Shown here in pieces: positions 33,873 to 43,555 of a stretch of DNA of 64,000 nt; the first letter of the stretch is position 1, and each line of letters opens with the position of its first letter. This DNA is from Acidovorax sp. A79. Lineage in GTDB: Bacteria; Pseudomonadota; Gammaproteobacteria; Burkholderiales; Burkholderiaceae_C. Position numbers and translations under genes: made by a program. The notes beneath the pieces are model-generated. The model searched no databases. It was given only the letters and a program-made list of their open reading frames with translations, and was not told the origin of the DNA. The stretch spans positions 1,439,001-1,503,000 of the forward strand of contig NZ_AP028672.1 in NCBI RefSeq assembly GCF_041154505.1, written 5' to 3'.

Positions 33873-34124
33873 TCACCGCCCGGTGAACATGAAATACGCC
33901 AGCACGCACACCGCCAGCGCCACGATAAGCCTGGCAATCCAGGGGGTGACCAGCCACGCGCCCAGGGCCAAGGCCACACGGCCCCACACATGCGGCGACT
34001 GCAGCGCGTTTTGGGGTTCCGCGGGCGAAGCGCCCTGGGCCTGCAGGGGGTAGCCGCAGGACGGGCAGGCGGGCGCCTTCGACGAGACTTCACGCCCGCA
34101 TTCCGGGCAACGCACAAGGGCCAT
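33873..34124 (-). CDS. Zinc-ribbon small membrane protein
   Basis: An 83-residue protein with an N-terminal zinc ribbon of two CxxC pairs (CPECG at residues 6-10, CPSCG at 20-24) and a hydrophobic segment near the C-terminus (VALALGAWLVTPWIARLIVALAVCVLAYFMF). It is the last gene of the minus-strand fibre locus, starting three bases after the OmpA-family stop, so it is probably co-transcribed. A short membrane-tethered zinc ribbon gives no function by itself; its link to the fibre system is positional. Confidence 0.75.
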   Translation of the reverse strand: MALVRCPECGREVSSKAPACPSCGYPLQAQGASPAEPQNALQSPHVWGRVALALGAWLVTPWIARLIVALAVCVLAYFMFTGR

Positions 34125-34127
34125 GGT

Positions 34128-34850
34128 CTACCTGCCTTCCCGGGACGGCACGCCGATGAGGATCTGGACGCGCCGGTTGAGCTGCCGGCCCTGCGGGTCG
34201 TCCCGGCCGTCCGGCGTGGTGTTGGGCGCCACGGGCTGGCGCTTGCCCTGGCCCTGCACAGCGGCCTGCCGGCCCGTCTGGCGGTGCAGTGCACGCGCCA
34301 CGGCCTCGGCGCGGCGCAGCGACAGGCTGTCGTTGTAGGCGTCAGTGCCTTTGCCATCGGTGTGGCCCACCACCGTGAGCGGCGCCGCCGCATAGCTCTT
34401 GATGAGTTCCGCCGCCTTGTCCAGCGAGGACGCCGCGTCCGCGCGCAGGTCGGATTTGTCGAAATCGAACAGCACGTCCGCCGGCAGGTCGATGGAGATG
34501 GCCTGCTCGGGCGTGGGCCGGGCCTTGAGCTCCGCCAGCAGGGCGCGCGTCTGCTCCAGCCGCTCCCTGGGCACCTCGGCCTCGCGCAGGATCGTTTGCG
34601 GCCCTGCGCTGCGCTGCAGCGTGGTGTCCTGCCGCCGTCCCACCAGCCCGCCCGCGGGCTCCTGCGCGCGCAGCGTGGTCGATGGCGCGCCCGATGCGGG
34701 CACCAGCCGCGTGGGCACGGCGCCCAGCGCCCGGCCGCTGCGCACGACCTCCAGCGCATGTGCCGGCCCGCAAGCCGCCAGCGCTACCAGCAGGGCGCAG
34801 GCCGGCGCGACGGCGTGCACCCCGGCGGCCGCCAAGCCCGGATGCCGCAT
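34128..34850 (-). CDS. OmpA-family outer-membrane lipoprotein
   Basis: A 240-residue protein. The signal ends in a lipobox-like LAAC, so it is probably an outer-membrane lipoprotein. A C-terminal OmpA peptidoglycan-binding domain occupies about residues 115-235 (DVLFDFDKSDLRADAASSLDKAAELIK, VVGHTDGKGTDAYNDSLSLRRAEAVARAL, NRRVQI), with the conserved Asp and Arg that bind diaminopimelate. Its ATG overlaps the TGA of the preceding lipoprotein gene (TGATG), indicating coupled synthesis. In this locus it may anchor the CsgG-like export complex to the cell wall (inference). Confidence 0.88.
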   Translation of the reverse strand: MRHPGLAAAGVHAVAPACALLVALAACGPAHALEVVRSGRALGAVPTRLVPASGAPSTTLRAQEPAGGLVGRRQDTTLQRSAGPQTILREAEVPRERLEQTRALLAELKARPTPEQAISIDLPADVLFDFDKSDLRADAASSLDKAAELIKSYAAAPLTVVGHTDGKGTDAYNDSLSLRRAEAVARALHRQTGRQAAVQGQGKRQPVAPNTTPDGRDDPQGRQLNRRVQILIGVPSREGR

Positions 34851-35449
34851 CAGCCGCCCTGCAGCGGCAGGTCGACGACCAGCCCCGGCGCCACGATGTT
34901 GTCGCCCTGGTTGCCATCGTTGAACACGAGCTTGAGCTTGCGCGCCGACGGCGCCACGGCGCCCATGAACACGAGCTGGCCGTCCAGCGTCTCGCCCTCG
35001 CGGATGGTGATGTCACGGTTGTTGTCGGGCCGCTTGATGTGCAAGCGGGCACCGCTCTCATCCTGCAGGTAGGTGTCGGCCAGGGCCAGCATGGTGGTGT
35101 CGGTGATGCGGTTGGCGAACGAGATGCTCACGTCGAGCACCGTCGCGTCCGCGCCGATCTCGACCGCCTTGACGCGCACCGTGACGCCCGCGGCGGCCAC
35201 GCCCTGGATGGACATGGGGACCTTCTTGGGCGTGGCGGCGGCTGGCGCGGCCGCCGGTGCCGGTGCTGGCGCTGCCTGGGTTGCAGGTGCAGTGGGTGCG
35301 GGGCCCGCGGCGGGCACGGGCGCGGTCGCTGCAGCCACCTGCGGCTCCGGCGCGCGCTCCTTGCACGCTGCCAGCACAACGGCGGCAGCGGCCACGGCCA
35401 GGGCCGCCCCCCTGCGCGATGGCGTCCACACGGGAGTCGTTGAATTCAT
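34850..35449 (-). CDS. Lipoprotein of unknown function in the fibre locus
   Basis: A 199-residue lipoprotein. The ATG at 35449 opens a signal ending VVLAAC. An Ala/Pro-rich linker follows (about residues 35-75), then a beta-rich domain of about 120 residues (GVTVRVKAVEIGADATVLDVSISFANRITD, GQLVFMGAVAPSARKLKLVFNDG). That pattern looks like a small immunoglobulin-like or DUF4352-like fold, though I cannot name the family. It lies between the collagen-like gene and the OmpA gene, and its stop overlaps the OmpA start. A structural or chaperone role in the outer envelope is plausible but unproven. Confidence 0.78.
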   Translation of the reverse strand: MNSTTPVWTPSRRGAALAVAAAAVVLAACKERAPEPQVAAATAPVPAAGPAPTAPATQAAPAPAPAAAPAAATPKKVPMSIQGVAAAGVTVRVKAVEIGADATVLDVSISFANRITDTTMLALADTYLQDESGARLHIKRPDNNRDITIREGETLDGQLVFMGAVAPSARKLKLVFNDGNQGDNIVAPGLVVDLPLQGG

Positions 35450-35547
35450 GGTGTCTGGTGCTCCTGGTTCATCAATCACTGTCCATGGTGGTTGCCGTGG
35501 CGCGGTTTGCGAGGTGGCCTGCGGAACGGCGGGTCGGGCGCCACGCA

Positions 35548-36009
35548 TCAGCGAATGCGGATGCTGTTGGTCTGGCCCGCAGCCCCCCCTGCCTTCGGGG
35601 GCTGCGGGCAAGCGCCGGTGCGCACGTCATTCGCATTGCGGCCCTGCACGATGACCGTGCGGCCCTCCAGGCGCGCGCCCGATACGTCCACGCTGTTGAC
35701 GGAGGCCGAGCCATCCGCGGCGCAACGTGTGCCGGACGCGGTATTGCCCGAGACCTCAATGCGGTTGCCCGCGCCCGCGCCGCTGGCAGCGCTGGTGGCA
35801 GGCTGCACTGGCGCGGCAGGCCGTGGCACGGGGTTCGCGCGGCCCTGGCGAAGCGGGTCCAGCGGCCCGGCGCGCTCGGGCCCGATGGGCCCCACGGGGC
35901 CGACCGGACCCACGGGCCCCACCGGGCCTGCGGCCCGGACCGTGGCACACGCCAGCAGCAACAGCAGCGCGAACAATGATGTGCCGTTCATGGTGGGAAA
36001 ACCTCGCAT
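35548..36009 (-). CDS. Exported collagen-like protein with one fibre-type repeat
   Basis: A 153-residue exported protein (147 from an internal ATG at 35991). The upstream ATG at 36009 overlaps the previous stop (TGATG). After the signal comes a collagen-like run, GPVGPVGPVGPVGPIGPERAG, then a linker. The rest holds a unit matching the locus's repeat: IEVSGNTAS, then SVNSVDVSGARLEGRTVIVQGRNANDV. That is the same register as NSVNITGSKIRNSDITVSGNEATDI in the 119-residue protein encoded at 42226-42585. This shared motif marks it as a likely minor fibre subunit or adaptor rather than a machine part (inference). Two cysteines lie in the C-terminal half. Confidence 0.75.
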   Translation of the reverse strand: MRGFPTMNGTSLFALLLLLACATVRAAGPVGPVGPVGPVGPIGPERAGPLDPLRQGRANPVPRPAAPVQPATSAASGAGAGNRIEVSGNTASGTRCAADGSASVNSVDVSGARLEGRTVIVQGRNANDVRTGACPQPPKAGGAAGQTNSIRIR

Positions 36010-36809
36010 CAGGGCGGTGCCTTTCCGGGCGTTCCAGGCAAGCTGCCCCCAGGCACCGCAGCCGGCGCCGGCGCACCCGAGGCCGGGCGGGGCACGGCCG
36101 ACATGCCCGGCAGGACGGAACCCGGCCGAACGGCCCCCGCCGCCGCGGGCCGCGGGTCACCGCCTTTGTCGGAGCCCTCCCCCGCGGCCTGGCGCTGGAT
36201 GCGCGCCTCCAGTTCCGATGCGAAGCGCTCGGCCAGGGCCACTTCTTCCACGGCCATTTCCGCGCCCAGTTCGTTGATCACCGACACCACATTGCGGTGG
36301 GTGCCGGTGTCGGGCTGGCTCATGCGCTCCAGCAGGCGTGCATAGCCCAGGGCCCGCACGTTGTCCTTGGGAACGCCCTGGCCCTTGCGGTTCATCTCCG
36401 TCAGGCGCTGCATCGCGCGCGGATCGCCGCGCACGGCGGCCAGCAGGTACCAGCGGTAGGCCTGGCCCATGTCGCCCAGGCCGGACCGGGGGTTCTGGTA
36501 CGCATCGCCCACGAACGAAAGCAGCTGCGGGTTCTGCGTGTTCAGGGCTTCGCGCTTCAGGCGCTCGAGCTCGTTGCGGTAGATCGGCCCCTGGCAGCCC
36601 AGCTCGGCCACGCCGCGCTCCAGCGCCTCGTTGCACGCTTCGAGGAAACGCGCACCCGCCGTGGCCCCGGGGGCCGCCGCCTGCTGTGCCGGCGCGGGTG
36701 CAGGCGGCGGCGGAGCGGCCGGCGGCAGCTGCGCGAAGGCGGGCGCATGCAGGGCAGCCCCCACCACCCAGGGCGCGCAGCGGTAGAACATGCGGGCGCC
36801 ACGCATCAT
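36009..36809 (-). CDS. Exported Sel1-like repeat protein
   Basis: A 266-residue exported protein with a signal ending near AFAQ (residue 27), a Pro/Ala-rich linker and a helical middle with Sel1-like repeats (GDMGQAYRWYLLAAVRGDPRAMQRLTEMNRKGQGVPKDNVRALGYARLLE, about residues 108-160). Sel1 repeats mediate protein-protein contacts. The tail is Pro/Gly-rich. Its ATG overlaps the stop of the CsgG-like gene by four bases (ATGA), so the two are translated together. I infer a periplasmic scaffold or assembly factor for the export channel. The exact role is unknown. Confidence 0.8.
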   Translation of the reverse strand: MMRGARMFYRCAPWVVGAALHAPAFAQLPPAAPPPPAPAPAQQAAAPGATAGARFLEACNEALERGVAELGCQGPIYRNELERLKREALNTQNPQLLSFVGDAYQNPRSGLGDMGQAYRWYLLAAVRGDPRAMQRLTEMNRKGQGVPKDNVRALGYARLLERMSQPDTGTHRNVVSVINELGAEMAVEEVALAERFASELEARIQRQAAGEGSDKGGDPRPAAAGAVRPGSVLPGMSAVPRPASGAPAPAAVPGGSLPGTPGKAPP

Positions 36810-37966
36810 GTGCCAGCCTTCGTGCCCGCCGGGGTGCCGCCGGGGGCCGGCGCCGCACCGGCCAACGCGGGTGCCTGCGCCGTGTCCCAGGCCATGGGCA
36901 CACCAAAGAACAGGGGCTCAAAACCCTGCCAGGTCATCACGTCCACGGCGCCCAGGGAGGGGTACCGCTGCGCATACACCTTCTCCAGCGCCTGCCGGGT
37001 CTCGTCGTCGTATTTCTGCGTCACCTGCACCGGCTCGCCGTACTTGCGCAGCGTCACCTGGATCAGCCCCAGCTTGAGCTCGGGCGTCAGCCCGTTGTAG
37101 GCCGCGCGCATGTTCTCCACCACCACGGGGTCCGGCGTGCCGTTGGGAATGCAGCGCCAGTACGGCGTGTTGGTGGCCTTGCCGATCAGCTCCAGCACGC
37201 TCAGATCCACCAGCGTGCGGATGGCCGAATGGCGCCCCTGCAGGTACTTGCCTTCCAGCTTGAAGCCGAAGGCATCGCCGTAAAAGCCCAGGCTGGCGTT
37301 GTCCTCGGAGCTGAAGTTGAGCACCTTGACCACGTTGGAGGCCTGCACCTGGGGCACCATCTGCTGCGTGGAGAAACTCACGAGGTTCAGGTCCAGCGCC
37401 AGTGCCGAATAAATGGCCGTGCGCTTGATGTCGCCTCCCAGCGTGGTCTTGCCGTTGCCCTTGCCGAACTCGATGCCCGCCGAATTCACGCGCCCCGCGC
37501 CCGCGATGGCACGGTCGAACTCCGTGAGCGCCCCCGTGATCAGGAAGTCCGGCATGGTCACGCCAAACTTGGCGCCCAGCTGGGCCTGCGACACCAGGTA
37601 GTCCGGGTGGTAGGGCACATAGACCACGCGCGCACCGATGCGGTTGACGGCCGTGCGCACCATCTCGGTGATGTCGCCGGGAATCTCCGCCCCCACGAGC
37701 GGGCTGGAGAGGTTGGTGGCATCCAGGATGCTGCGCGTCTGCATGTAGATGACGGGATCACCTTCCTTGTAGACATTGAGCATGCGCCCGAAGCGGCCGA
37801 GCGCCAGCGCGTAGGGGCTCAGGTTGGTGACCGGCAGCAGCTTGTCGGCCTCGCGCTCCTGCAGCAGCGTATTGGCGTCCTTGAGGGCGTTTTCCGTGGA
37901 TGCACAGCCAGCGAGCGTGGCCACTGCCAGCGCCAGCGCTCCCCATCGCAATGTTCTTTTCGTCAT
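36806..37966 (-). CDS. CsgG/HfaB-like outer-membrane secretion lipoprotein
   Basis: A 386-residue lipoprotein (signal MTKRTLRWGALALAVATLAGC). After residue 60 the pattern fits the CsgG/HfaB family: MVRTAVNRIGARVVYVPY; PDFLITGALTEFD (CsgG: IMVEGSIIGYES); an amphipathic loop region rich in Gly (SAGIEFGKGNGKTTLGGD); ALALDLNLVSFSTQQMVPQVQASNVVKVL (CsgG: IAVNLRVVNVSTGEILSSVNTSKTIL); and LSVLELIGKATNTPYWRC. CsgG forms a nonameric channel that exports curli subunits. This protein is longer than CsgG (277) because of its N- and C-terminal extensions. It sits in an operon with repeat-rich exported proteins, its probable cargo. The family assignment is my alignment by eye and should be confirmed by profile search. 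Confidence 0.75.
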   Translation of the reverse strand: MTKRTLRWGALALAVATLAGCASTENALKDANTLLQEREADKLLPVTNLSPYALALGRFGRMLNVYKEGDPVIYMQTRSILDATNLSSPLVGAEIPGDITEMVRTAVNRIGARVVYVPYHPDYLVSQAQLGAKFGVTMPDFLITGALTEFDRAIAGAGRVNSAGIEFGKGNGKTTLGGDIKRTAIYSALALDLNLVSFSTQQMVPQVQASNVVKVLNFSSEDNASLGFYGDAFGFKLEGKYLQGRHSAIRTLVDLSVLELIGKATNTPYWRCIPNGTPDPVVVENMRAAYNGLTPELKLGLIQVTLRKYGEPVQVTQKYDDETRQALEKVYAQRYPSLGAVDVMTWQGFEPLFFGVPMAWDTAQAPALAGAAPAPGGTPAGTKAGT

Positions 37967-38037
37967 GGTTCTTTGTTGTGGTGGTGGTATCAAAAGCCCC
38001 GCTCTCCCGGGGCTGCAAGGCAGAAGGCCCGCGGCCG

Positions 38038-38496
38038 TCAGCGGCCGGAATTGAGGACGGTGATGTTTTCCACGCCCTTGCCTTCCACGTACAGCGTCAC
38101 GTTGCCGTTCACGTTGCCCTGGATCACGGGGCTGGCGATGCGCAGCGTGCCGTCGGGCGCGCGCTGCACATCGGAATACGTGGAACGGATCACGATGTTC
38201 TTTTGCCCGTCGGGCAGCTTCAGCGTGCCGTCGGGCTGCACCAGCGCGCTCTGGTCCACCAGCGTGTTCTGCGAGATGGCGCGGTTCACGCGGGCCTTGG
38301 CACTCACCGACGGATAGACCCCGTCGTTGAGCCGCACACCGCTTTGCGCCATGTCCTTGTAGGCGCCCAGCTGTTCGCCGTAGTTCACCAGCTGGGCCTG
38401 CGCGCCGGCGCCCATCAGCGCCAGTGCCCCTGCCCCGCACCAAAGGCCCAGGGCGCGCAGCGTGCGCCGATGGGAGTTTTCGTCCAGATTTTTCAT
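38038..38496 (-). CDS. Small exported protein between cargo and channel genes
   Basis: A 152-residue exported protein. The ATG at 38496 follows GGAG at five bases. The signal ends near AGAQAQ (about residue 35). The mature part begins LVNYGEQLGAYKDMAQSGV and ends GNVNGNVTLYVEGKGVENITVLNSG, a beta-rich N/G/V sequence. It is encoded immediately before the CsgG-like gene. By position it could be a CsgE/CsgF-like accessory or an HfaA-like small subunit, but I recognise no firm homology to any of them. The absence of the GN-anchored 30-residue repeat separates it from the cargo proteins. Confidence 0.72.
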   Translation of the reverse strand: MKNLDENSHRRTLRALGLWCGAGALALMGAGAQAQLVNYGEQLGAYKDMAQSGVRLNDGVYPSVSAKARVNRAISQNTLVDQSALVQPDGTLKLPDGQKNIVIRSTYSDVQRAPDGTLRIASPVIQGNVNGNVTLYVEGKGVENITVLNSGR

Positions 38497-38560
38497 TGCG
38501 ACTCCTTCATCCACTGAAAACCAAAAACGCGCCGCTGCGCACCCGCCAGGCAGCGCCGCC

Positions 38561-41500
38561 CTACATGCTGAGCAGGTTCACGGCCGGCAGCACCGTGACG
38601 GACTGGTTCACCACGCCCGTTGAGGGGATGGCGTACGTGTAGCCGGGATTGGCGGCAAAAGGGGTGTTGCCCGCCACGCCGACCACGCCGGTGATGGCTC
38701 CGCCCACATTGCGCACGCTGCCAGAGGTCATGCCCGCCGCCGCGGCCGACATGTTTCCGACGATGGTCACCGCGCCGGTGATCACCCCCTGGTTGACCAC
38801 CGAGTTGGACACGCCGCCCACGGCCGCATGGCCCTGGTTGCCGGCGATCACGACCGTGCCCGCCATCACGCCGTGGTTCACCAGCGAGTTGACCGTGCCG
38901 CCCAGCGTGGCGCTGCCCCGGTTGCCCGCGATCAACACCCGGCCCGAGAGCTGGCCCCGGTTGTCCACGCTGTTGACAGTGCCGCCGCCCGTGGCATTGC
39001 CCTGGTTGCCGGTCACCACGACCTGCGCGCCCGCCATGCTGCCGCTGTTGTTCACCCCGTTGACAAGGCCGCCGCCGCTGGCCCGGCCCGTGTTGCCCGC
39101 GATCAGGATCTGGCTGCCCTTGATGGAGCCCGATCCCGTGACGCTGTTGACCTTGCTGCTGGCACCCTGCGCACTGGCCTGGTTGCCCAGGATGGTGATG
39201 CTCGACGCCGTGATGCTCCCCCCGCCGCGCACGCTGTTGGCCAGCCCGCCGCTGGCCGACCCCGCGTTGCCGATGATGGTGATCTGGCTGCCCGAGATGC
39301 GGCCATCGCCCACCACGCTGTTGATCGCCCCGCCATCCCGCGCCGAGCCCTGGTTGCCCAGGATGGTGATGCTGCCGCCCTGCAGCGTGCCCGCGATGTC
39401 CACGCTGTTGGCCACCCCCTGCTCGCCCGAGCCCTGGTTGGCGGTCACGGTGACCGACGAGCCGGCCACGCGCCCACGGCCCTGCGCGCGCACGCTGTTG
39501 GCCAGCCCGTCCCGGCCGGCGGCGCGGGCGCTGCCCTGGTTGGCCACCACCTGCACCGCGCTGCCCTGCAGCGTCCCGTCGGCCTGCACGCTGTTGGCCA
39601 GCGCCGTGCTGCCCTGCTCGGCCTGGGTGGACACCGCCGTGTTGGCGGCCACCAGCGCCTGAACCCCGTCCACGCGGCCACCGGAGCCCTGCGAAAAACT
39701 GTTGGCCGCCGCCAGGCCCTCGGTGGCGAACACACGCCCCGCCGTGTTGCCCATCAGCTGCAGGCTGGCCGCGCGCATGTCCCCCAGCACCTGGATGGCG
39801 TTGGCATTGGCCTGCCCCACGCCCCTGCCAAACGCGGCAAAGCCGCCCACCGTGCCCTCGCGCCCTTCGCTGCGCACGTCGGCCGCCGTGTTGCCCGCGA
39901 GCGTCAGCGTGCTGGCCTCCACGCGGCCCTGGGCGTTGACCGACAGCGCATTGGCGTTGATGCGGCCACCGTCCGCGTTCAGCTGCCGGGCCGTATTGCC
40001 CACCACCTGCAGGGTGCTGCGGGCCAGCGCCGTGGCGCCCGAGCCATCCATGTACAGCCCGTTGGCCGCCAGCACGCCATTGGACTTGGTGCCCACGCCC
40101 AGTGCCTGCGCGCCACTGCCGGCGGCGCGGATGTCCTCGCCCGTGTTGCCCGCGATGACCACCGGGCTGCCCTGCACCCGCGCGCCACGGTAGGCCGCCA
40201 GCGCATTGACCAGGGCGGTGCCTCCGGGCGCGTGCACGCCGCGCGCGGAGTTCCCGGCGATCAGCCAGGGCGACGATGCATCCACCAGCGCATCGTCGTG
40301 CAGCACCAGGGCATTGGCGGCGGCCCGCGCGCGGCTCTCGCGCCCGGCCAGCCCCCCCGCGCCGGAGACCGAATCCGCCGCGGTGCTCATGTCGCTGGCC
40401 GTGTTGCCGCTCAGCACACCCGCCGCCGACAGGCGCGAGGGCGCGCCCGCGCCGTTTTCCAATGCAATGCTGTTGGCCAGCAGCGCGCCTCCGCGTGCCG
40501 TCAGCCGCGATGCGGTGTTGCCCGCCAGCGTCAGCGTCTGCGCATCAAGCTGCGACCCCGTGACCGCCAGCGTGTTCGCCAGCGCGGCCGACTGCTGGCT
40601 GGCCGAAAACAGAAGCCCCCCGCCCGCCTGCGCCGCATAGCCGGTGGACCGCACCCCGTCGGCTCGGTTGCCCGCCAGGGTCAGGGCGGTGTCCTGCACG
40701 CGGCCCTCGCTCACCATCAGCGTGTTGGCCGCGGCCAGCCCGCCCGAGCCCGTGATGGCCTGGCCGTGGTTCCCGCTGACGGTGACGGCGGCGCGCTCCA
40801 GCGTGGACTGGTGGTCCGCCACCACGGTGTTGGCCAGTGCGCGGCCGTTGCGCTCCAGGGCGCCGACGAGGCCACCGCCAATGGTGCCCGAGCCTGCGGC
40901 CGTGCGCACCTGGTCGGCCACGTTGCCCGCCAGCAGCACGGTGCCAGCCCGCACGGTCGCGTTGTCCAGCCACAGGCTGTTGGCCGCCGCCCCGCCCCCG
41001 GTCGCGACCACATCGCGCGCCTGGTTGCCGCTGAGGCGGTGCACGGGCCCCTCGGCCAGTTCGCCCCGGGTCACGGAGATGGTGTTGGCCAGGGCCGAGG
41101 CGGACACCCGCACGTCGGCCAGCGCCCCGCCGAGAATGGATCCTTCACCGCCCCAGGCCTGCACGTTGCGTGCGGTATTGCCCGAAACGCCCGCCTGGTA
41201 GCCCGCCGAACCGGCGAGCTTGTGGTCGGAAAAGCTGATGCTGTTGGCCAGGGCGCTGCCGCCCGTCGCGATGACCTGGGCCGCTTCATTGCCCGCCAGG
41301 ACCAGTTGCGCGCCCTTGAGCTCACTCGACGCCAGGGTGACCGCGTTGGCCGCAGCCACCCCCGTCAGATCCACCTGGGCAATGGTGCCGCGCCCCACGC
41401 CGGCGCTGCCGCCGCCTGCGCGCACGTCCTGCGCGCGGTTGCCGGTGTGCAGGATGCGGGTGTCCTCCAGGGTGGACCGGGCCGCGGTGAGCGCATTGGC

Positions 41501-42139
41501 GAGCGCTGATCCGCCGATGGAGGTGACGCCACGGGCCTCGTTGCCGACCAGCGCCACCTCGGAATTGCGCACGTCGGTCGCATCCAGCAGCACGCTGTTG
41601 GCCGTGGCGCGGCCGGGCATCTGCAGCGAACCGGTGCCCAGCAGCACCTCGGACTTGGCGCCGAAGGCCGCGACGTCGGCCGCGCGGTTGCCCTGCACGA
41701 TCAGGCGGCTCGCCGTGAGCTGCTTCGTACCCGTGGCGCTGGCCGCCAGCACCATGTTGGCGGTGGCGGCACCGCCCAGGGCGTGCACGAAGCCCGTTAC
41801 CTGGTTGCCCAGCACCTGCACCTGGGACTGGCGCACGTCCATCGCTGCCAGGCCGATGCCGTTGGCCTGCGCGGTGCCCGCCAGGTCCACGCGCATGCCG
41901 ACATTGGCCAGGGCGGAGCCCTTGCCGCCGGTGGAGATCACCGGTCCCGTGGAGCGGTTGCCGAGCACCTGGATCTGGCTGCCCGCGTCCACCTGCGTGC
42001 CGGCACTGTTCTTGTGCCAGCCCACCCCGGCGAGCATGGACTCCTGCGCCTGACCGCGCAGCGGCGCCAGGGCCACGGAAAGACCGAGCAGCCAGAGCGC
42101 CGCGGCTTCATGGCGTTGCGTCTTGCGCGTTGTGTGCAC
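38561..42139 (-). CDS. Giant repeat-built exported protein, putative main cargo of the CsgG-like channel
   Basis: A 1192-residue protein starting at GTG (42139), with a signal peptide ending near GQAQ (residue 32). The rest is about 30 repeats, each anchored on a hydrophobic beta strand plus GN (for example TLTLAGN, SITILGN, QILIAGN), followed by a variable A/S turn, GG and an ANS/NSV step. The first 18 units are long (about 35-60 residues, often with ALANS); the last 12 are short (about 25-33, GS-rich, INSV). No cysteine was seen and aromatics are rare. The pattern suggests a beta-solenoid or amyloid-like fibre subunit or a long surface adhesin (inference). No TpsA, autotransporter or IPTL tail is present, which supports export by the adjacent CsgG-like channel. 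Confidence 0.85.
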   Translation of the reverse strand: MHTTRKTQRHEAAALWLLGLSVALAPLRGQAQESMLAGVGWHKNSAGTQVDAGSQIQVLGNRSTGPVISTGGKGSALANVGMRVDLAGTAQANGIGLAAMDVRQSQVQVLGNQVTGFVHALGGAATANMVLAASATGTKQLTASRLIVQGNRAADVAAFGAKSEVLLGTGSLQMPGRATANSVLLDATDVRNSEVALVGNEARGVTSIGGSALANALTAARSTLEDTRILHTGNRAQDVRAGGGSAGVGRGTIAQVDLTGVAAANAVTLASSELKGAQLVLAGNEAAQVIATGGSALANSISFSDHKLAGSAGYQAGVSGNTARNVQAWGGEGSILGGALADVRVSASALANTISVTRGELAEGPVHRLSGNQARDVVATGGGAAANSLWLDNATVRAGTVLLAGNVADQVRTAAGSGTIGGGLVGALERNGRALANTVVADHQSTLERAAVTVSGNHGQAITGSGGLAAANTLMVSEGRVQDTALTLAGNRADGVRSTGYAAQAGGGLLFSASQQSAALANTLAVTGSQLDAQTLTLAGNTASRLTARGGALLANSIALENGAGAPSRLSAAGVLSGNTASDMSTAADSVSGAGGLAGRESRARAAANALVLHDDALVDASSPWLIAGNSARGVHAPGGTALVNALAAYRGARVQGSPVVIAGNTGEDIRAAGSGAQALGVGTKSNGVLAANGLYMDGSGATALARSTLQVVGNTARQLNADGGRINANALSVNAQGRVEASTLTLAGNTAADVRSEGREGTVGGFAAFGRGVGQANANAIQVLGDMRAASLQLMGNTAGRVFATEGLAAANSFSQGSGGRVDGVQALVAANTAVSTQAEQGSTALANSVQADGTLQGSAVQVVANQGSARAAGRDGLANSVRAQGRGRVAGSSVTVTANQGSGEQGVANSVDIAGTLQGGSITILGNQGSARDGGAINSVVGDGRISGSQITIIGNAGSASGGLANSVRGGGSITASSITILGNQASAQGASSKVNSVTGSGSIKGSQILIAGNTGRASGGGLVNGVNNSGSMAGAQVVVTGNQGNATGGGTVNSVDNRGQLSGRVLIAGNRGSATLGGTVNSLVNHGVMAGTVVIAGNQGHAAVGGVSNSVVNQGVITGAVTIVGNMSAAAAGMTSGSVRNVGGAITGVVGVAGNTPFAANPGYTYAIPSTGVVNQSVTVLPAVNLLSM

Positions 42140-42225
42140 TCACAGCCCCTTTTCTGGATGGATAGGGATGGTCGGACGGCTTGCGGTCCGGCCGGCGGTT
42201 GCCGGACGGACCCGCGGCACGCCGG

Positions 42226-42585
42226 TCAGTTGATGTTGACGCTGTTCACGTTGGCCGTGCCGCCGATGGCCTTGATGTCGGTGGCTTCGTTGCCGCTCAC
42301 GGTGATGTCCGAGTTGCGGATCTTGGAGCCGGTGATGTTGACGCTATTGACGTTGGCCACGCCTTCCATCGAGATCTCGGCCACCTTGATGCCGGCCTTG
42401 CCGCCGCCAGCGATGACGTTGGTGGCCTTGTTGTTGGTGACGGTGATGCGGCTGTTGGTCACTTCGGAGCCGGCGGAGCCCTTGCCCGAGATCAGGCCGG
42501 GAATCGCGACGTTGCCGCTCTGGGCGAAAGCTGCGCTGCAGGTAAATGCGAGTGCTGCGACGGTGGTAATGGCAAGTTTGCGCAT
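42226..42585 (-). CDS. Small repeat protein, putative fibre subunit or nucleator
   Basis: A 119-residue exported protein and first gene of the operon, with AAGGATT eight bases before the ATG at 42585. The signal is MRKLAITTVAALAFTCSAAFAQ. The mature 97 residues contain two copies of the locus repeat: SRITVTNNKATNVIAGGGKAG with ANVNSVNITGSKI, then SDITVSGNEATDIKAIGGTANVNSVNIN. Size, position, signal and repeat make it look like a curlin-type major subunit or nucleator, while the 1192-residue protein downstream has 30 related units. It is not a CsgA homologue in the strict sense (no SxxxxxNxAxVxQxG units). Confidence 0.82.
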   Translation of the reverse strand: MRKLAITTVAALAFTCSAAFAQSGNVAIPGLISGKGSAGSEVTNSRITVTNNKATNVIAGGGKAGIKVAEISMEGVANVNSVNITGSKIRNSDITVSGNEATDIKAIGGTANVNSVNIN

Positions 42586-42961
42586 ATCAATAATCCTTCG
42601 AAGGGTTGAAATTAATTGACGAAGCAGCCGCTTGCGGCCTGCGAACGAATTCTTGAGGCGCGCACCCGTCCACACCGTAAAGAAATGTAGGCCCGGCCCG
42701 GGCTGGCATTTTCCGAGTTATCCACAGGTCGTACCTCCCGGGATCCGCGCTCTGAGCCGCACGGGGTTTTGGTATGTAGGACAAGCACTTACTCCGCCAG
42801 CGGGTGCATTCCCACATTTGAACGATGCCGCCGCACTTCCATAATCCACCGTAAAAACCAACAAGTCTTTACACTTCAAATCATCATGAAACCCGCAACA
42901 ACATTCAGAAATCCATACTTTCAAGAAAATGAATGGAATCTCCTGTTTTATTGTCACAAAT
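42586..42961. promoter_or_regulatory. AT-rich divergent control region of the fibre locus
   Basis: A 376-base region between the first fibre-operon gene and a divergent lipoprotein gene. Positions 42840-42961 are by far the most AT-rich stretch of the window, unlike the roughly 65-70 percent GC of flanking genes. It is the obvious place for the operon's promoters and for regulators such as nucleoid proteins. No gene or terminator is visible. No specific operator can be named. Confidence 0.5.
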
Positions 42962-43555
42962 ATGAAATCAATTATCTTTCGTGGCTTTTTGTATATGGGG
43001 GCCGTGGGCGCCCTGGCGGCCTGCTCGCCCGCGGCCATCACCTATCCCAGCGATGCGCAGATTTCGGCGGCCCTGGAGACGCAGTTCGCCAGCGACCGCC
43101 ACAGCGCCGCTGCGCGCGACCTGATCCGCACGCTCGGGGGTGAGAAGGGCAAGCTGCGCTATCAGATCCACCAGGTGATCTACCGCCAGGGCTCGTATGA
43201 GGCCCGCTACGACGCGGTGCTGGTGATGGGGCAGCCGGGGACCCAAAGCCTCCTGGGGCTGTACGGCAGCATGATCCCCGAGGCCGAGCGCGCCAAGCTG
43301 CCGCAGGCCAGCCTGGAGGCCTATGAAGGCTGGCTCAGGCAGCAGGCCGAAACCCTCCGGAAAACCTCGGCACAGCAGGCGGGTGCGCTGGAGGCGACCC
43401 TGGAACTGCTGGGCAAGTGCTACCGGGACCAGCAAGCCGGGGCCGAGGTCACGGTGATGCAGGGCCTGGGGGCGCTGATCTCGCCCGAGCGCAGCGGGCT
43501 ATACGCTGAAAAGCTGGCGCTGCCGGACACCACGGCGCGCTGCCTCCCCGCCTAG
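42962..43555 (+). CDS. Lipoprotein divergent from the fibre operon
   Basis: A 197-residue lipoprotein of unknown family. The ATG at 42962 gives MKSIIFRGFLYMGAVGALAAC with a good lipobox; an ATG at 42929 adds 11 residues without improving the signal. The mature part is mostly helical and charged (HSAAARDLIRTLGGEKGKLRYQIHQVIYRQ, EAYEGWLRQQAETLRKTSAQQAGALEATLELLGKCY). It shares the AT-rich control region with the fibre operon and may serve that system (position only). Its TAG stop overlaps the stop of the convergent kinase gene in the shared CTAG at 43552-43555. Confidence 0.78.
   Translation: MKSIIFRGFLYMGAVGALAACSPAAITYPSDAQISAALETQFASDRHSAAARDLIRTLGGEKGKLRYQIHQVIYRQGSYEARYDAVLVMGQPGTQSLLGLYGSMIPEAERAKLPQASLEAYEGWLRQQAETLRKTSAQQAGALEATLELLGKCYRDQQAGAEVTVMQGLGALISPERSGLYAEKLALPDTTARCLPA

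Follow-up and report, generated by a model that had tools for sequence, protein, structure and literature searches.

A putative CsgG/HfaB-type surface export system with beta-helical repeat proteins in Acidovorax sp. A79

CsgG-type channels are well known from curli and, by relation, from the holdfast anchor. Here we analyze roughly ten linked genes that form a block within a 64-kilobase (kb) window of the Acidovorax sp. A79 genome ("the window" denotes this whole stretch of DNA); the block includes the gene for a CsgG/HfaB-like lipoprotein, hereafter the channel. With a probability of roughly two in three, we read the block as a system of the CsgG/HfaB type that exports subunits of a class of its own and assembles them at the surface. 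Computation shows stable linkage of the channel to three proteins, termed r119, big and g153, which carry signal peptides and share one repeat as their building unit; we further infer their passage through the pore, polymerization and adhesion. The ten proteins of the block were scanned with Pfam and NCBIfam, and the signal peptides of the exported proteins were assigned by eye.

Curli (CsgA-CsgG, type VIII secretion) share with the window system the channel fold, exported beta-solenoid repeat subunits and the general logic. In contrast to curli, the window system has no curlin repeat match, no recognized CsgE or CsgF, and a subunit of 1192 residues. A 2012 curli survey lists two betaproteobacterial curli systems and regards CsgG matches outside curli operons as probable paralogues that belong to a larger family (PMC3521004), a description that the window channel fits. 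In the Caulobacter HfaA-HfaB-HfaD system a CsgG/HfaB-fold lipoprotein channel likewise has two exported surface proteins linked to it, one small and the other larger; a published study describes this arrangement (PMC6707917), and it recurs in the loci examined here. HfaB also provides the sequence profile closest to the window channel. Unlike Hfa, the window system includes a Sel1-like protein, g153, lipoproteins and an OmpA-type protein, its channel has a peptidoglycan-binding-like tail, and no polar holdfast is known for it. A CsgG-like lipoprotein has also been noted among three lipoproteins of an Acinetobacter island (PMC3224125).

The window system is neither curli nor Hfa: ordinary curli were rejected because curlin repeats, CsgE and CsgF are lacking, and the Hfa system proper because the HfaB score is far below cut-off and no HfaA or HfaD match was found. 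This bears out the original prediction, made from the sequence alone, that the accessory set differs from those of both systems. We found no description of the cassette in the open literature searched; one may exist elsewhere. The channel family and its general logic are already known, and what sets the system apart is the predicted beta-helix cargo, the probably wall-bound channel and the proposed built-in template architecture. Here a CsgG paralogue comes with likely cargo and partners that form a defined and conserved set; the cargo is predicted to be beta-helical, which is unusual, and the pore may carry a tail that anchors it to the wall. The locus renders testable how the pore class chooses its cargo, whether a chain of 1192 residues can pass, and whether r119 polymerizes on a built-in template, and it marks out a candidate machine for adhesion among relatives in Acidovorax, Variovorax, Diaphorobacter, Ottowia, Xylophilus and Xenophilus.

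The channel and its repeat proteins

The original prediction hinged on a likeness to CsgG seen by eye in the 386-residue channel lipoprotein. The HfaB equivalog model NF037935 matches this protein with 21.5 bits (expectation value E = 1.1e-4), short of the cut-off of 300 bits, and 41 of 51 channel relatives match the same model; by this profile, the channel is a distant relative only of the HfaB equivalog. Nine of the 51 relatives match Pfam CsgG (PF03783) at E<=0.05 (best 0.0012), and the orthologue at locus L068 scores 18.8 bits. The structure prediction that had been proposed sustains the assignment: the predicted fold is nearest to CsgG, every one of the 25 PDB chains found at E<=0.001 being from CsgG entries, and the model combines a CsgG-like alpha/beta core with a pair of long beta-hairpins. 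A phmmer search of the channel against PDB sequences gave no match. Profile comparison with ten presumed CsgG proteins, which were chosen by their HfaB-model match and taken for CsgG as a set, is weak (probability, Prob, 9.6), and comparison with a single presumed CsgG protein gives nothing. The link to CsgG runs through HfaB and the fold; the lipoprotein is predicted by computation to have a CsgG/HfaB channel fold. The lipoprotein cysteine, Cys21, is invariant across the 51 aligned relatives, and the lipobox pattern occurs in 25 of 28 channel sequences tested. DUF6491, matched by 26 of the 51 relatives (best E 0.0069), was discounted, since in the window channel the match falls on the signal peptide and its boundary (residues 7-35).

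Following the core, residues ~269-358 of the channel form a helical region that is confidently predicted (predicted local distance difference test, pLDDT, of 84-95 in this block). A profile alignment with the channels of system B, a sister type described below, places residues ~300-350 on the PG_binding_1 domain. The corresponding Pfam family (PF01471) is found at E<=0.05 in four of the 51 relatives (best 6.1e-4), and the orthologues at L068 and L114 stay below cut-off. It is likely, not proven, that the tail is a diverged peptidoglycan-binding-like domain.

The largest cargo candidate, big, consists of 17 alternating units of ~50 and ~34 residues followed by units of 28-34 residues. Accordingly, self-similarity of residues 56-840 peaks at a lag of 85 (lags 20-199 considered), exceeding all 300 shuffles. 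The protein has no Pfam or NCBIfam match, and is modelled as one complete right-handed beta-helix, from which a loop emerges at intervals of ~85 residues. Its similarity to solved beta-helices, with 7-15% sequence identity in the structural alignments, places the model in the right-handed parallel class, which includes tailspikes, pectinolytic enzymes and the PfbA adhesin; unlike these, big combines a strict ~50/~34-residue coil alternation with linkage to a CsgG-type channel.

r119 comprises a Gly-rich N-terminus, one long and one short repeat unit, has a nearly fixed length, and ends in GGTANVNS(V/I)NIN, which is nearly invariant among orthologues; it is one two-unit block of the repeat of big. 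Two r119 homologues, P0136 and P0164, are named DUF3060 domain-containing protein by one source, and r119 itself has no DUF3060 Pfam match. g153 contains two short repeat units with cysteines. In the window, g153 carries an N-terminal GPVGPV tract (GPVGPVGPVGPVGPIGP, collagen-like), and several orthologues, as called, are devoid of it.

The family profiles of r119 and g153 match each other with Prob 98.1 (E 6.9e-14), and r119 matches big of its own genome four times (E 4.1e-11, 1.7e-9, 2.3e-7 and 3.9e-4). A GN-anchored repeat had been proposed for all three proteins. The common repeat stands, on the strength of these profile comparisons, but GN enrichment is confined to big, with 28 dipeptides versus a shuffle mean of 13.1 (maximum 27 in 2000 shuffles); counts in r119 (2 versus 1.7) and g153 (2 versus 1.2) are not enriched. 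The expected lack of curlin repeats agrees with the Pfam scan, in which big and g153 matched no family at E<=1 and r119 gave irrelevant matches only.

Conservation and related loci

The gene order was compared across 40 loci, namely 39 of the window type (A-type) and L114; the A-type genomes G085 and G378 are not among these regions. Removal of nine duplicates left 31 distinct loci, 26 of them with flanks of sufficient length (6.5 kb and 4 kb or more), the short-flank loci L004, L008, L013, L015 and L023 being set aside. The channel and the OmpA-type protein are present in all 26, and r119, big, g158, the Sel1-like protein, g153 and the second lipoprotein each in the same 25. These eight core genes keep the window order in 25 of the 26 loci, in agreement with the conserved co-occurrence that the original prediction implied. 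The divergent lipoprotein is found in 24 loci, the zinc-ribbon protein, least conserved, in 22. In the 22 loci that come from named genomes, the cassette is syntenic as far as the contigs extend; one carrier is A. radicis N35 (locus L009).

A scan of 399 genomes of the family yielded a channel match of any kind in 71, of which 20 are A-type (at least 67% identity; own genome and one of the same species included) and the others distant. r119 is present in 20 of the 399 genomes, identical to the 20 with an A-type channel; the chance of two such sets coinciding is ~10^-33. Since linked genes are inherited together, this co-occurrence documents stable linkage rather than many independent events. 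The distribution is patchy, as G262, G325 and G383 of the same genus harbour neither channel nor r119. A plasmid-borne element was dismissed, because 72,556 plasmid records searched at E<=1e-5 yielded only two distant Azospirillum matches, annotated as DUF4384.

The distant channels of the family scan reside in other cassettes of Burkholderiales, collectively termed system B, and eight of the 20 A-type genomes also contain a second, distant channel match. We describe system B from ten loci in which a channel was mapped (L055, L056, L060-L064, L066, L069, L073); the gene caller, trained on the window, mapped no channel in L054 and L057-L059, and the latter three were omitted from this description. 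In eight of the ten (all except L062 and L073) a repeat subunit and a small accessory accompany a channel of 476-585 residues, and in the same eight the accessory ends in a conserved V-V-L/I-R-G-D pattern. As in the window, the order is repeat subunit, small accessory, channel, and the alignment of the two channel families extends across 340 columns (E 2.3e-22). In contrast to the window system, the subunits bear Q/N-rich, QNLSSN-type repeats, the channel, of ~560 residues, has a DUF4384 extension, a response-regulator-like gene lies opposite (by eye), and no homologue of the 1192-residue protein was found in these loci. Three distant system-B channels were scanned, two of which belong to the eight typical loci; all three have DUF4384 above its cut-off and a PG_binding_1 stretch, which exceeds its own cut-off in two. 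Two scanned subunits gave no curlin match. The protein encoded downstream is by eye Sel1-like in some loci, and the window Sel1-like protein compares with these proteins at only Prob 31 (E 5e-4). L073 deviates by an OmpA-type neighbour, which is shared by L126 and L127 and absent from the other system-B loci of the Comamonadaceae family that were mapped. Systems A (the window type) and B resemble a pair of branches from a single type. An apparent match of r119 to the system-B subunit (Prob 66) was discarded, since its columns 2-32 represent the signal-peptide region.

Further variants were observed in other genomes. In L126 and L127, from another family of the order, the channel is adjoined by a divergently oriented series of small NVN-repeat genes that includes an OmpA-like gene. 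L054:9890-11673 (G411, another family of the order) is an HfaB-type gene that, at 297 bits, falls just under the cut-off, and two small repeat-like genes adjoin it. In two genomes of the same phylum, the gene that immediately follows an HfaB-like gene encodes a protein of ~1000 residues (L101:1969-4977, L102:1575-4664); large neighbours of HfaB-type channels may not be unique to the window.

A model of assembly and its rivals

If the block is an export and assembly system, the three repeat proteins would cross via Sec unfolded, pass the channel, which may act as an oligomer by analogy with CsgG, and fold outside. big would form a rigid right-handed beta-helix rod of ~30 coils, with a protruding Gly-rich loop on every second coil of its N-terminal two thirds. 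Beta-helices rise by ~0.48 nm per coil, and the predicted rod would therefore be near 15 nm long. As a two-coil block of the same rod, r119 could join end to end with further copies of itself and with big, as polymer or nucleator, the big rod serving as covalent template or tip and g153 as a cap or membrane-side adaptor. The complex may be anchored to the wall by the OmpA-type protein, the channel tail and the lipoproteins, g158 and the Sel1-like protein could be periplasmic or pore-side helpers, and the output would be a wall-anchored adhesive fibre or rod layer. A bolder version is possible, yet we advance it tentatively: a third class of CsgG-channel fibre whose subunit is a right-handed beta-helix in place of a curlin solenoid, in which r119 would polymerize in exact register with big, a genetically fused ~30-coil rod of the same lattice that serves as covalent template or ruler, and a fused binding domain would bolt the pore to peptidoglycan.

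Several results weigh against an export and assembly system. A weak point in the profile search that the original prediction had called for is that Pfam CsgG reached 11.8 bits (E = 0.15) with the single window sequence, below its cut-off of 20.8 bits. The channel model is of moderate overall confidence (pLDDT 67.4), falls below 50 in its membrane-hairpin parts, and gives template modelling (TM) scores of 0.23-0.26 by query length. PF01471 is not matched by the window channel in the Pfam scans, and neither CsgE nor CsgF was detected by Pfam or NCBIfam among the ten block proteins. Profiles do not connect the repeats with HfaA, HfaD or curlin; against reference sets of four sequences each, chosen by position beside HfaB genes, the r119 profile scores Prob 4.3 for HfaA and 0.3 for HfaD. 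A Foldseek search with big returned no PDB match at E<=0.001, and a stable monomeric beta-helix need not polymerize. Finally, most of the cassette is missing from L114, a locus of another family of the order in which a channel of 45% identity and an OmpA protein are present. By profile, L114 encodes weakly r119-like (1.9e-7) and g158-like (1.8e-4) open reading frames; L114:8290-10597 is a minimal channel/g158-like/r119-like/OmpA form without a match to the 1192-residue protein, perhaps close to the ancestral set.

In a rather unlikely alternative, big is a rod adhesin displayed singly, nothing polymerizes, and r119 is a dedicated chaperone-like or capping fragment. The model of big as a complete solenoid folded on its own, the nearly fixed length of r119 and its nearly invariant end agree with such a role; yet the two edges left exposed in a two-coil protein would be sticky, favouring stacking, and HfaA is reported to form multimers resistant to sodium dodecyl sulfate and heat (PMC6707917). 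The beta-helix proteins might instead constitute an outer-membrane platform that holds exopolysaccharide, as HfaABD holds the Caulobacter holdfast, with no free fibre. This reading draws on HfaB as the nearest profile of the channel, on the pairing of a small with a larger surface protein as described for HfaA and HfaD in the same study and seen in the loci examined here, and on the many solved beta-helix matches that, by their titles, act on or bind polysaccharide. We consider it unlikely, however: the ten block genes, the only part of the genome searched for this purpose, include none for polysaccharide secretion, the subunits do not match HfaA or HfaD by profile, and the extra wall-anchor set differs. 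The alpha/beta lipoprotein folds of HpaA, PelC and TolB also match the core of the channel model, as would suit a structural envelope lipoprotein that forms no pore and belongs to an envelope-maintenance operon; this we regard as highly improbable.

Layout of the gene block and accessory proteins

The open reading frames named in the original prediction exist at or near their proposed positions, and the zinc-ribbon/membrane gene, not named there, is a further block member (Table 1). The nine minus-strand genes are transcribed in the order r119, big, g158, channel, Sel1-like, g153, second lipoprotein, OmpA-type and zinc-ribbon/membrane protein, and a divergent lipoprotein gene lies on the plus strand. 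From the coordinates, the intergenic gaps down the minus-strand series are 86, 46, 71, -4, -1, 95, -1 and 3 base pairs (bp), with overlaps at three junctions and a widest gap of 95 bp.

Table 1. Features of the gene block and their coordinates in the window
Feature	Coordinates	Strand	Description
r119	42226..42585	-	Exported small repeat subunit, 119 residues; open reading frame with 97 homologues
big	38561..42139	-	Exported repeat protein, 1192 residues; predicted right-handed parallel beta-helix
g158	38038..38514	-	Small exported accessory directly upstream of the channel gene
Channel	36806..37966	-	386-residue lipoprotein of predicted CsgG/HfaB fold; C-terminal region probably peptidoglycan-binding-like
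Sel1-like protein	36009..36809	-	Exported periplasmic protein; weak Pfam Sel1 match
g153	35548..36009	-	Third repeat protein; profile match to r119 family
Second lipoprotein	34850..35452	-	Weakly DUF4352-like; lipobox pattern
OmpA-type protein	34128..34850	-	OmpA-domain peptidoglycan anchor protein; Pfam OmpA match
Zinc-ribbon/membrane protein	33873..34124	-	83 residues, zinc ribbon and membrane helix, last gene of block; Pfam Zn_ribbon_3 E=8.2e-8
Divergent lipoprotein	42929..43555	+	208 codons; lipobox pattern; conserved neighbour, part of conserved block
Shared intergenic region	42586..42928	.	Presumed control region; short conserved blocks among Acidovorax relatives

Among the accessory proteins, the OmpA-type protein has a clear OmpA C-terminal domain (PF00691, E=1e-18, 67.9 bits, cut-off 27.2). 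The Sel1 assignment is a weak point, as the Pfam match (E=1.4e-4, 22.8 bits) is below the cut-off of 30.7; the same protein scores 26.1 bits against NCBIfam MerG (cut-off 350). The lipobox pattern is present in 18 of 25 orthologues tested of the second lipoprotein, whose match to DUF4352 is weak, and in 25 of 27 of the divergent lipoprotein. g158, which starts at GTG 38514 or ATG 38496, has no relevant Pfam or NCBIfam family match, and its profile gives nothing significant against HfaA (Prob 5.6), one CsgF-like sequence (Prob 0.3) or the system-B accessory (Prob 1.2). A kinship with the latter, suggested by eye from AKAR..R and a G-D/N-V-x-N end, was dropped on this result.

An alignment of 11 upstream regions reveals short conserved blocks in the shared intergenic region, such as AAGTGTAA-like and TTGTCCTACA-like stretches. 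The blocks ahead of r119 are possible regulator sites; they gave no defined motif in this alignment, and scanning for sigma-70-type promoters gave no promoter-like site on the minus strand upstream of r119. The number of terminator-like matches is 9, versus 5.2 expected.

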